Assembly: GCA_021845925.1 (NCBI GenBank)
Contig: JAJZUW010000003.1
Span: forward strand, 1 to 64,000
Length of the DNA: 64,000 bases
Direction: 5' to 3'
Source of the DNA: Pseudomonadota bacterium
Lineage (GTDB): Bacteria; Pseudomonadota; Gammaproteobacteria; Burkholderiales; Sulfuriferulaceae
Part shown: in pieces, positions 38,772 to 57,190 of the stretch
Position numbering within the stretch: the first letter of the stretch is position 1
Layout of the letters: each line of letters starts with the position of its first letter
The notes under the pieces: model-generated
What the model saw: the letters and a program-made list of their open reading frames with translations, nothing else
Databases searched by the model: none
What the model was told of the DNA's origin: nothing
Translations under genes and position numbers: made by a program

Positions 38772-40184
38772 ATGAAGCGTTGGCTGTTTGCGCTCCTGTG
38801 CCTGCCACTGGTCGTTCTGGCAGGCACATTGCCCGATCTGGGCGACAGTTCCCAGTCGGTACTCACACCAGCAGATGAAATTCGTCTGGGCCGCCGGGCG
38901 ATGCAGGACATTCGCCAGCAACCGGATTTCGATAGCGATCCGGAACTGACCGATTACCTGAACGCCCTGGGTTACCGGCTGGTGGCCAACAGCGACCAGA
39001 ACAGCCTGGACTTCCATTTTTTTGCCATTCGCGACAGCACGCTGAACGCGTTTTCCATGCCGGGTGGTTATGTCGGCATCAACACCGGCCTGATCGAAGC
39101 CACACGCAATGAATCCGAGCTGGCCGGGGTCATGGGCCATGAAATTGCTCACGTCACCCAGCACCACGTCGCCCGCATGATCGAGGCGCAATCACGCGGA
39201 GTCCTGCCATCACTGGGCATGCTGGCCATGTCGATTCTCGCCGCCAGAGCCAATCCGCAGGCTGCCGGCGGCGGAATCATGGCAACCCAAGGACTGATGG
39301 CGCAGAAACAGCTGGATTTCAGTCGCGACAACGAACGCGAAGCCGACCGGCTTGGCATGCGCACCATGCAGCGCACCGGTTTTGATCCGCACGCCATGGT
39401 GACTTTCTTTCAGCGCCTGCAGCAGGCCACGCGTCTGGATGAGGCGCATGCCATCGCGTATCTGCAAACCCACCCTTTAACCAGCGAACGCATTGCCGAC
39501 ATGCAGAACCGCGTCGCCTCCCTGCCTCCAGTGCCGGTCAACGACAGCATCGAATACCGGCTGCTGCGGGAAAAACTGCGCGTCGACGACCTGCCAGCCG
39601 AACAGGCGCCCCTGGTCATCCTCGATGCCATCCGGCAGCACCAGTTCCGGCATCCGGAGAGCCAGCAGTATGCGCTGGCGAGCGCCTGGTTGCACGCAGG
39701 TCAACCCGACAAGGCATGGGCAGCCTGGCAAACGCTCGCTCACATCGATGTCCACAGTCCGGTGATTGACATGCTGGGCATCCGCATCCAGGCAGACCAG
39801 CGGCATGATCAGGTGGTACAGCGCATGTATGCGGATGCCCGTTTGCGCTACCCGCACTATTTGCCGCTGGCCACCGGCTATGCCACCTGGCTGCTGAACC
39901 ACCACCAGCCGGTGCAAGCCATGACAATCGTGAATGAAGAACTGCAGACCAGCCCGGACAACGCACAGCTCTACCAGTTGCAGTCGCGCGGATATGCCGC
40001 GGAAGGATTCGTGTTTCTCAGCCATTATGCCCAGGCACGCTCCCTTTATAACGACGACAAGCCGGAACAGGCCATTGCACAGCTGAAAATTGCCCTCAAG
40101 TCAGCAGATGCAACGTTTTACAACCTGTCGGAAGCCGAAGCCGACATGCAGCAATGGCAGCAGGAAGTCCAGCTGCAAAGATGA
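38772..40184 (+). CDS. Periplasmic M48 metalloprotease, BepA-like
   Basis: A 470-residue exported protein resembling BepA (YfgC), which chaperones or degrades outer-membrane proteins such as LptD and works with the BAM complex. It has a signal peptide (hydrophobic residues 4-17), the zinc motif HEIAH at 123-127 and a downstream Glu ligand in DNEREADRLGM. The C-terminal half is helical with TPR-like repeats (for example HAGQPDKAWAAWQTLAH). The match with BepA is in architecture; the exact orthology was not tested. A 275-bp inverted-repeat element begins 18 bp after its stop. Confidence 0.88.
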   Translation: MKRWLFALLCLPLVVLAGTLPDLGDSSQSVLTPADEIRLGRRAMQDIRQQPDFDSDPELTDYLNALGYRLVANSDQNSLDFHFFAIRDSTLNAFSMPGGYVGINTGLIEATRNESELAGVMGHEIAHVTQHHVARMIEAQSRGVLPSLGMLAMSILAARANPQAAGGGIMATQGLMAQKQLDFSRDNEREADRLGMRTMQRTGFDPHAMVTFFQRLQQATRLDEAHAIAYLQTHPLTSERIADMQNRVASLPPVPVNDSIEYRLLREKLRVDDLPAEQAPLVILDAIRQHQFRHPESQQYALASAWLHAGQPDKAWAAWQTLAHIDVHSPVIDMLGIRIQADQRHDQVVQRMYADARLRYPHYLPLATGYATWLLNHHQPVQAMTIVNEELQTSPDNAQLYQLQSRGYAAEGFVFLSHYAQARSLYNDDKPEQAIAQLKIALKSADATFYNLSEAEADMQQWQQEVQLQR

Positions 40185-40202
40185 ATTCATCAACAATTCA
40201 GG

Positions 40203-40477
40203 CTAGCAGCCTGTCGGACTTAATTCGTCAATCACGCCAAATTGCGAAATCGGGTAGGGCTAGGCGCAAGACACGACGTTGTGCGAGACACAACAAGTGG
40301 ATTGCAACACAGCAATACCCGTTTCGCGGCTTGGCCCTTCGGGTTACCTCCAGAACATGCGTCTGCTGCGTTGTCAATCTTGCGAATGGAGCAACCATTC
40401 GACTGCGATTGACGCCTTGCATCCATCATGTTCTGGAGTGTAACGTGCATGATGAATTAAGTCCGACAGGCTGCTAG
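40203..40477. mobile_element. MITE-like element with 24-bp terminal inverted repeats
   Basis: The ends 40203-40226 and 40454-40477 are perfect 24-bp inverted repeats, starting CTAGCAGCCTGTCGGACTTA. Inside, CTCCAGAACATG (40348-40359) and CATGTTCTGGAG (40427-40438) form a second perfect 12-bp pair around a shorter hairpin (GAATGG/CCATTC). No coding frame of note is present. Size, nested dyads and lack of a gene fit a MITE moved by a transposase elsewhere. The outermost CTAG at both ends could be a 4-bp target duplication, of the YTAR kind seen with IS5-type elements, but being a palindrome it is ambiguous. A collapsed copy is at 57164-57190. Confidence 0.75.
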
Positions 40478-40480
40478 AAT
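40475..40480 (+). promoter_or_regulatory. Candidate alaS -10 at the element edge
   Basis: TAGAAT lies 41 bp before the alaS start and is formed by the last three bases of the inverted-repeat element plus AAT of the flank. No good -35 is seen at 16-18 bp, so the call is weak. Confidence 0.3.
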
Positions 40481-40521: not shown

Positions 40522-43140
40522 ATGAACAGCAGTGAAATCCGCCAGCGCTTCCTCGATTTTTTTGCCAGAAACGGCCATGCCGTCGTTGCATCCAGCCCGC
40601 TGATCCCGGGCAATGATCCGACATTGCTGTTCACCAATGCCGGCATGGTCCAGTTCAAGGATGTCTTTCTCGGGCGCGACCAGCGCCCGTATGTCCGCGC
40701 GGCCAGTTCACAACGCTGTGTCCGGGCCGGCGGCAAACACAATGACCTCGAAAATGTCGGCTATACCGCCCGGCACCACACGTTTTTCGAAATGCTGGGC
40801 AACTTCAGCTTTGGCGATTACTTCAAAACCGATGCGATCCGCTTTGCCTGGTCATTCCTCACCGAAGAACTGCGCCTGCCTGCCGAGCGGCTCTGGATTA
40901 CCGTGTACCGGACGGACGATGAAGCCTACAACCTGTGGACCGGTGAAATGGGCGTGCCGCCGGAACGGGTCATCCGCATCGGCGACAAGCCGGGCGGCGG
41001 TTCGGACAACTTCTGGCAAATGGGCGACACCGGACCTTGCGGACCTTGCACGGAAATCTTTTACGATCATGGCCCTGAAGTGGCTGGTGGCCCGCCCGGC
41101 TCCCCGGATGAAGACGGCGACCGCTACATCGAAATCTGGAATCTGGTCTTCATGCAGTTCAACCGGGATGAATCCGGCCAGTTGCACCCGCTGCCGAAAC
41201 CATCCGTGGATACCGGCATGGGACTGGAGCGCATTTCGGCGGTGATGCAGCACGTGCACAGCAATTATGAAATCGACCTGTTTGCCAACCTGATTCGTGC
41301 CAGCGCACGTGTCACCGGCGTCAGCGACCTGCACAGCAATTCGCTCAAGGTCATTGCTGACCATATCCGCGCCTGTGCATTCCTGATCACCGATGGCGTC
41401 ATTCCGGGCAATGAAGGGCGCGGCTATGTGCTGCGCCGCATCATCCGGCGCGCCATTCGTCACGGTTACAAGCTCGGTTGCAAGCAACCTTTCTTCTTCC
41501 GTCTGGTGGAAGAACTGGCCGCACTGATGGGGCAGGCGTACCCGGAACTGGTCGCCGCCCAGGCCCGTGTTGCCAGCACGCTTCAGCAGGAAGAAGAGCG
41601 GTTTGCCGAAACACTCGAACACGGCCTGACCCTGCTGGCTGCCAATCAGCCGCCGGCAGGTGGCATCCTGGATGGCGAAACCGCATTCCGCCTGTATGAC
41701 ACTTACGGATTTCCACTCGACCTCACGGCTGATATTGGTCGCGAGCGGGGCTTCAGCGTGGATACGGCGGGTTTTGACACGGCCATGAACGCCCAGCGCG
41801 AGCGGGCACGCAGCGCCAGCCGGTTCACCATGAACGCCGCCCTCGAATTCAATGGTGCGGACACCCGCTTCGATGGCTACGACCATCTGCGCGAAACCGG
41901 CACTGTCGTGGCGCTTTACCGGGACGGGCAACCAGTGGCCCGTCTGGATGCTGGCGATGCCGGCGTGGTTGTGCTGGATCAGACGCCGTTTTATGCCGAA
42001 TCGGGTGGACAGGCAGGCGACCGTGGCCAGCTGACTGCAAACGGATCCGTGTTCCGGGTCAGCGACACGCTCAAAATCCGCAACGGCGTCAGCGGTCACC
42101 ACGGCATTCTGCAACAGGGCAGCCTGCAGACGGGCGATACGGTAGATGCCATCGTTGATACCGACGCGCGCGCGCATACCGCCGCCAACCACAGCGCCAC
42201 CCACCTGCTGCATGCCGCGCTGCGTGCCGTTCTGGGCGGTCACGTGAGCCAGAAAGGCTCGCTGGTGGATGCCGAACGCCTGCGCTTCGACTTTTCGCAT
42301 GGTGAAGCCCTGTCTGCCGAAGACATTGCCAGCATCGAATCCCTGGTCAATGCGCAGATCCGTACGAACCATGCCGTGGCAACAGATCTGATGGCGCACG
42401 ATGCCGCCATCAAGCGCGGTGCCATGGCGCTGTTTGGCGAAAAATACGGTGATGAAGTACGCGTGGTCGCCATGGGTGATTTTTCCACCGAACTGTGTGG
42501 AGGAACCCACGTTCAACGCACCGGCGATATCGGTCCATTCGTGATCGTCAGTGAATCCGGCGTGGCTGCCGGTGTACGCAGGATCGAGGCACTCACCGGC
42601 CCGGCCGCGCTGGCGCATATCCAGCAACAAAGGCAACTTCTGTCCCGCCTCGCCAGCCAGCTGAAATCACCAACCAGCGAACTGTCCGCACGCGTATCGC
42701 AACTGTCGGAGCAGCTTGCCGAACAGCAGCGGGAAACCGAGCGTCTCAAATTGCGTCTGGCAGCCGGACAGACCGAGCAGCTGCTCCAGAAGGCGCAACG
42801 CATCGACGACATCCGACTGCTCACTGCCCGCATTGATGACGCGGACCCAAAACTGTTGCGCGAATACCTGGATCTGGCACGATCCCGCCTGTCTCCCGAA
42901 CCACACATCGTGGTGCTGGCTTCCGTGGATGGCGACAAAGTCAACCTGATTGGCGGTGTTTCGGCGCCGCTCAACCAGAAAATCAAGGCTGGCACACTGA
43001 TCAGCCATGTTGCTGCCGGCGTAGGCGGCAAGGGGGGGGGACGGCCTGACATGGCGCAGGCAGGTGGCACGGATGCAACGGCACTGCCGGCGGCGCTGGC
43101 CGGCATCGAAGCCTGGGTGCGCCAGCAACTGGCATCGTGA
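40522..43140 (+). CDS. alaS: Alanyl-tRNA synthetase
   Basis: AlaRS charges tRNA-Ala and edits mis-charged Ser and Gly. The 872-residue protein has the class II catalytic domain at the N-terminus ([17 protein letters not shown] onward, with the [12 protein letters not shown] loop), the editing domain with the zinc motifs [11 protein letters not shown] and CGGTHV, and the C-terminal oligomerisation domain ending in the glycine-rich [14 protein letters not shown]. The length is normal. The codons for GKGGG contain a run of nine G residues. Confidence 0.98.
43032..43040 (+). repeat. Nine-G homopolymer in alaS
   Basis: Nine consecutive G residues encode Gly-Gly-Gly in the conserved GKGGGRPD motif near the AlaRS C-terminus. 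The frame is intact at this length. G tracts of this size are known slippage sites in other bacteria. Confidence 0.85.
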
Positions 43141-57163: not shown

Positions 57164-57190
57164 CTAGCAGTCAGTCCGACAGGCTGCTAG
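57164..57190. repeat. Collapsed copy of the 40.2-kb inverted-repeat element
   Basis: The 27 bases run CTAGCAG to CTGCTAG and keep the last 18 bases of the element's right end (AGTCCGACAGGCTGCTAG) plus the first 7 of its left end. The interior is gone. It lies between two convergent genes, and its terminal CTAG supplies the dgkA stop codon on the minus strand. Confidence 0.7.

Follow-up and report, generated by a model that had tools for sequence, protein, structure and literature searches.

A MITE upstream of alaS with a structured two-hairpin core also found within the ends of other insertion sequences

The window analysed here is a stretch of 64,000 nucleotides (positions 1 to 64,000 of contig JAJZUW010000003.1, assembly GCA_021845925.1) from a bacterium of the Sulfuriferulaceae, order Burkholderiales. 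At positions 40203-40477 it contains an element of 275 bp, counted with its two flanking CTAG copies, which is below the 500-bp bound for MITEs. As the initial annotation had it, the element lies between a protease gene and alaS: the upstream neighbour is an M48 peptidase gene ending at 40184 and the downstream one is alaS itself (40522-43140). The terminal arms (40203-40236 and 40444-40477) are 34 nt long and 91% complementary, and their outer 24 nt are perfect. An inner pair (40348-40359 and 40427-40438) is 12 nt long and 100% complementary, so both perfect repeats of that annotation are present. It had also recorded that there is no gene inside, and no convincing one was found in the element; the longest largely internal ORF (107 aa, 40154-40477) begins within the upstream gene. 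On the minus strand, the left end of the element and the adjoining sequence form a terminator-like stem-loop (40199-40213), which is possibly a chance product because one was found when 0.4 were expected in shuffles.

The left CTAG target-site copy (40203-40206) is followed by SAGCCTGTCGGACTT, and these ends match the ends of 1.5-kb insertion sequences of the IS1182 family, e.g. ISAzo2. The perfect part of the IS1182-type terminal inverted repeat occupies 40207-40226 on the plus strand and 40454-40473 on the minus strand, and the right CTAG copy (40474-40477) is situated in the -10-like region of alaS. In our own grouping and naming of end types (T1 to T8) these are T1 ends. CTAG, in some cases with one letter changed, flanks most of the T1 ends that were read, and in most paired copies of the fetched loci it is followed by S and AGCCTGTCGGACTT at either end. 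With up to three mismatches, the 21-nt end occurs three times in the window and 0.00 times in 100 shuffles. Two of these matches belong to the element and the third lies at 57170-57190. The initial annotation had described a related collapsed copy at 57.2 kb as a sign that the element has spread. The end type is indeed the same, but only a 27-bp palindrome (57164-57190) is left, which retains parts of the ends and has CTAG on both sides. As the present genome holds a single full copy with these ends plus this remnant, the claim of spread relies mainly on relatives, where same-ended copies were found at other sites, several of them in genomes G006 and G010. End-like 17-mers (up to two mismatches) were detected in 14 of the 18 genomes of the genus, a count in which isolated matches include chance ones, a reversed-pattern control having also matched in many genomes. 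Scanning genome contigs with CTAG in the pattern gave at least 120 stretches. End-to-end IS1182-type palindromes of 28-47 bp, similar to the 57.2-kb remnant, were also observed at loci L089 (3979-4006), L043 (1473-1516) and L181 (1174-1220).

Seventeen alaS loci were obtained from 16 relatives (G002 yielded none). Of these loci, 14 offered 400 unambiguous upstream bases, and the others had 13 bases only, were partly N or lacked the start. A comparison with empty sites had been proposed in the initial annotation, and all 14 readable same-genus relatives proved empty, the T1 end being absent from the 400 bases upstream of alaS. Nor did any of the 16 relatives' alaS loci searched give a match to the hairpin arms described below. 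As judged by eye, the upstream neighbour is shared with G005 only, so that for most relatives the comparison covers the site from the alaS side. When the window flanks are joined without the element they read TTCAGGCTAGAATAGCG, which identifies the -10-like region of the essential gene alaS as the insertion target. The motif GCTAnAAT stands 39-52 nt before the start codon in 12 of the 14 readable relatives, and inspection by eye of relatives, L323 for example, shows TGAATT-N16 spacing before TAAAAT. From a similar reading by eye we infer a hybrid alaS promoter in the window, TGAATT-N16-TAGAAT (40453-40480, plus strand), to which the right end of the element and the target site both contribute; a consensus scan found no promoter. 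At L324 and L337 (G006 and G015), a sequence resembling a T6 end (CACTGATT / CGCTGATT) is found somewhat upstream of alaS; an old, degraded insertion close to this promoter may be its origin.

Autonomous relatives carry an IS1182 transposase between the same ends. At L083 and L107, end pairs 1541-1542 bp apart enclose one long ORF each, assigned to IS1182 by NCBIfam NF033551 with 355.8 and 372.9 bits (cut-off 270). L207 and L208, both plasmid records, have matching ends, and their annotation assigns the genes to the IS1182 family, in one case to ISAzo2. The full insertion sequence with the same ends and a transposase that the initial annotation had suggested looking for is hence represented by these four loci. 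ORFs were read in just two pairs of about 1.54 kb among the genome-contig loci; the longer pairs at L089, L125, L132 and L160 seem to join ends that do not belong together. In agreement with the earlier proposal, we classify the window element as a MITE whose ends are of the IS1182 family: its ends match IS1182 elements, and relatives have the empty site. No IS1182 transposase above the cut-off was found in the present genome or in G004, G006, G009 and G010, the latter four of which carry many same-ended copies. Within the 18 genomes of the genus only G008 and G013 contain one, and no T1 end pair was seen around the IS1182 genes of these two, for which reason the window copy is probably orphaned in its present genome. 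Another structured MITE family with IS1182-type ends, about 167-169 bp long and forming a long imperfect hairpin, was observed in several bacterial groups (L105, L114, L131, L132, L145, L146, L153 and others).

The element folds as DNA with a predicted energy of -83.9 kcal/mol, compared with -39.5 +/- 4.2 for shuffles (z -10.6; 0 of 200 shuffles). In place of the one long hairpin that had been expected from the nested repeats, the predicted fold is a three-way junction with two long arms, closed by the terminal repeats. Arm A (40233-40343, minus strand) and arm B (40335-40447, plus strand) are hairpins of about 110 nt, and the overlap of the two arm matches (40335-40343) is the linker CCCTTCGGG. 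The 12-bp inner repeat forms the basal stem of arm B, with the 5' side on the plus strand and the 3' side on the minus strand. A covariance model of arm B, termed R1, matched the window's arm B with 103.5 bits (E 8.9e-25), a score that includes its own row because this arm was among the 20 rows used for building the model. R1 also matched arm A on the opposite strand with 34.6 bits (L232, 1399-1509 minus). The element is thus an inverted pair of related hairpins.

In the 20 aligned arms B the basal stem varies on both sides together, and CTGC, GTTG, GCA and CCATC are among the invariant loop letters. Changes on both sides were seen at 22 of 37 pairs in an alignment made blind to structure. Pairing reached 96.9%, compared with 79.6% in shuffled alignments (0 of 500 as high) and 31-41% when the pairing was slid. 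A larger set comprised 99 arm matches (97 distinct) from 62 loci, and 34 of the 37 pairs showed compensatory change. Pairing in the 97 distinct arms was 94.6% versus 64.6% shuffled, in an alignment fitted to the structure of the model. Of the five measures taken on these 97 arms, one was unexceptional: further pair types were as numerous in 52 of 500 shuffles. The cells counted as covarying are not independent because the copies are related by descent.

BLAST searches with the window element found matches in 17 of 61 genomes, its own included, often confined to element positions 60-225 or 157-225. Of 300 genomes of the order, 107 had an R1 match at E <= 0.001 with 12 candidates per genome scored, and 58 of 134 genera were represented among them; within the genus, 14 of the 18 genomes had such a match. 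The present genome gave six such matches: the window's arm B, the two arms of the element at C11:42.8-43.1 kb, a single arm of that around C9:95.1-95.4 kb (whose second arm was found in a further search), an incomplete copy on C6 and a unit of the arrays on C5. Apart from the window element, this genome has two two-arm elements, which are of another end type. An Azotobacter plasmid and a Thiohalomonas MAG with the core are probably outside the window organism's order; in the plasmid search a whole T2 copy retrieved one Azotobacter record, and the whole window copy and a T4 copy gave no match. Among 45 viral-contig loci found by T2, T4 or T6 ends, three had arm matches and 42 had none. Single-arm versions, in which the terminal repeats are present and one arm is missing, were seen at L018 (172 bp) and L022 (165 bp). 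Tandem arrays of 142-bp and 122-bp units occur in the present genome (L270, G000:C5 33.7-34.4 kb; L271, C5 139.6-140.2 kb); their units carry an arm-like motif (GCGTTGC ... GCGCCTTGCA) and match R1 weakly, with 21-32 bits. A reading of these arrays as attC-like was considered and dropped in view of the consensus of such sites.

One core was found between eight end types. Besides the IS1182 ends (T1), these are T2 (GGGCTCGTTAATGAATAA), T3 (GAGCCTATTTCAGTAG), T4 (GGGCSTGTTMACACT), T5 (GGGTGAATCGACATTC), T6 (GGAAGCRCTGATTAA and variants), T7 (GTRTACTGTTGCATG), defined by one locus with one arm match, and T8 (GAGCTTGTCCGTGAATAA), defined by two aberrant copies in one genome. Insertion sequences with matching ends were found for five types and belong to IS1182 and two IS5 subgroups. 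For T6 it is L277 (1263 bp, TTAG on both sides, IS5_4 transposase). The other three are of the IS5_3 type, i.e., L290 for T4 (813 bp), L340 for T5 (844 bp) and L342 for T3 (905 bp). The transposases of L342 and L290 consist of four split IS5_3 ORFs scoring 91-105 bits, below the cut-off of 110. No insertion sequence was found for T2, T7 or T8, the search for T2 covering two viral-contig loci and six genomes. In six genomes the T2 ends formed 15 pairs of 265-266 bp and one of 48 bp, together with four unpaired ends. Plasmid searches with T2 and T3 ends returned short, weak matches only, and one of these turned out to be a pair of IS5 type bearing T3 ends. We also tested whether YTAR is a target common to all end types. 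This was not upheld, both flanks being YTAR in 4 of 41 resolved elements, all of them T1.

End identity, the empty sites, the core common to different ends and the covariation constitute the computed support for our interpretation. On this basis we consider it rather probable that a structured MITE core has exchanged ends between transposase families and has probably been selected as folded DNA; the route of the exchange, a function at the DNA level and mobilisation in trans are what we infer beyond these results. An IS1182 transposase would move the element in trans, cutting next to CTAG, and in this way the element would have inserted into the CTAG of the alaS -10-like region. Its interior would be a compact structured module and not a shrunken transposase gene. 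This module, two inverted hairpins of about 110 nt with the terminal repeats closing a three-way junction, would have been repackaged between the ends of several IS5- and IS1182-type elements. Selection may preserve the DNA fold, as a cruciform or as single-stranded hairpins, most likely because the fold aids mobilisation or maintenance of the element, and exchangeable ends would allow it to use whichever transposase is present. More tentatively, the two-hairpin core may be viewed as a selected DNA-structure module, a short DNA that several DDE transposases can mobilise and that switches IS-family ends; we hold this general form to be possible but somewhat doubtful.

Bacterial MITEs are usually regarded as leftovers whose ends are the working parts. 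If the more general form of our interpretation is true, the element would be a transposon parasite identified by its fold rather than by its ends. That compensatory change has kept a core between ends of several types suggests that the interior of a MITE can be selected and can outlive one transposase, and it raises the testable question of whether DNA folding within a MITE promotes transposition. The core family is common in the order, and the window copy sits in the promoter region of an essential gene.

It may be argued that the element is an ordinary IS1182-derived MITE, in which the ends alone matter and the interior looks conserved through the youth of the copies or their passage between species. 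The ends would account fully for mobility, and same-ended MITEs with other interiors are common: arm matches were present in 7 of the 60 IS1182-ended loci searched (of at least 120) and absent from 53. Such a MITE leaves unexplained, however, that the core recurs between other IS ends, with compensatory changes in its stems and fixed loop letters, and we regard this alternative as unlikely.

Less likely still is that the element acts after transcription as a structured RNA, e.g. as an mRNA-stability element or a terminator. Its RNA folds are very stable on both strands (z -12.7 and -13.4 against shuffles), and RNase III cutting of Correia-element transcripts is reported as known in PMC10969869. 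Selection on RNA from one strand should favour either G-T or A-C mismatches, so their balance is relevant to the choice between DNA and RNA. On the read strand of the arms, with all pairs kept, G-T exceeds A-C by 193 to 53, as the RNA reading would have it. The two are balanced in the other 32 pairs (37 versus 51 cells, p 0.165) once five pairs in which G-T is common are set aside; since these five were chosen after the counts had been seen, the balance is a weak indication for DNA. In addition, the two arms carry the motif in opposite orientations, so that neither strand of the element is preferred over the other, and a search of the window stretch and 24 loci with the Rfam 15 covariance models gave no match.

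A nested insertion, i.e., a two-arm core that is a mobile unit in its own right and entered several pre-existing MITEs, would likewise give a homologous core with differing ends, and related single units do occur in tandem arrays. Nevertheless, the core is centred and total length is near constant across T1-T5: of the 30 T1-T5 elements measured, 27 span 263-268 bp from end to end, and the remaining three 191, 227 and 322 bp. For T6 this length is 274-276 bp in six of nine elements so classed by the script, one of the nine being a T8 copy. The script left 7 of 48 elements unresolved, all of T4 type. We therefore consider nested insertion to be improbable.

It is also quite improbable that one ancient MITE kept its core while its ends and transposases diverged together. 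Most end types do begin with a few G-rich bases beside a target that contains TA. There is also a distant relationship between the transposase families, since the IS1182 model gives 112 bits, below its cut-off, with the IS5_4 transposase of L277. Yet interior pieces of at least 52 nt are 67-87% identical to those of the window in BLAST, whereas the IS1182 transposase and two IS5-type ones (L340 compared through its N-terminal ORF only) gave short, weak alignments or none. As the transposases hardly align, it is unlikely that core and transposase diverged slowly together, and an exchange of ends is the simpler reading.

A REPIN-like identity, with movement by the tyrosine transposase (Y1) associated with REP sequences, would fit the palindromic form and the occasionally clustered or tandem units (PMC3116915, PMC2817692), but the REPIN/REP-RAYT systems described there are tied to Y1 transposases, no Y1_Tnp match was found in 6 of 18 genus genomes including the present one, five of these six have arm matches and the ends belong to DDE-type insertion sequences, so that RAYT/REPIN identity was rejected and this reading is largely refuted.

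Among known systems, ISAzo2 and other IS1182-family insertion sequences have nearly the same terminal sequence next to CTAG; they are 1.5 kb long with a transposase, and the ends are the only common part seen. Type II MITEs are also short and non-coding, with terminal inverted repeats and target copies, and their IS similarity is confined to the ends according to PMC10969869; unlike them, the present element has a covarying, structured core that also occurs in elements whose IS ends differ. The Correia elements, or NEMIS, known from Neisseria are by description small palindromic mobile elements of bacteria as well, but smaller than 275 bp (about 107-155 bp in PMC2229807, 204 bp in PMC10969869), and they were set apart by description. 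The same applies to TIMEs, Tn3-derived miniature elements that are non-autonomous like ours and mosaic-forming by the title of PMC4133298, which also gives their Tn3 type, unlike that of our element. In the literature searched we found no description of this family or of a MITE core common to different IS ends. A Polaromonas genome paper (Mattes 2008), cited for MITEs in PMC10969869, could describe a relative of the family.
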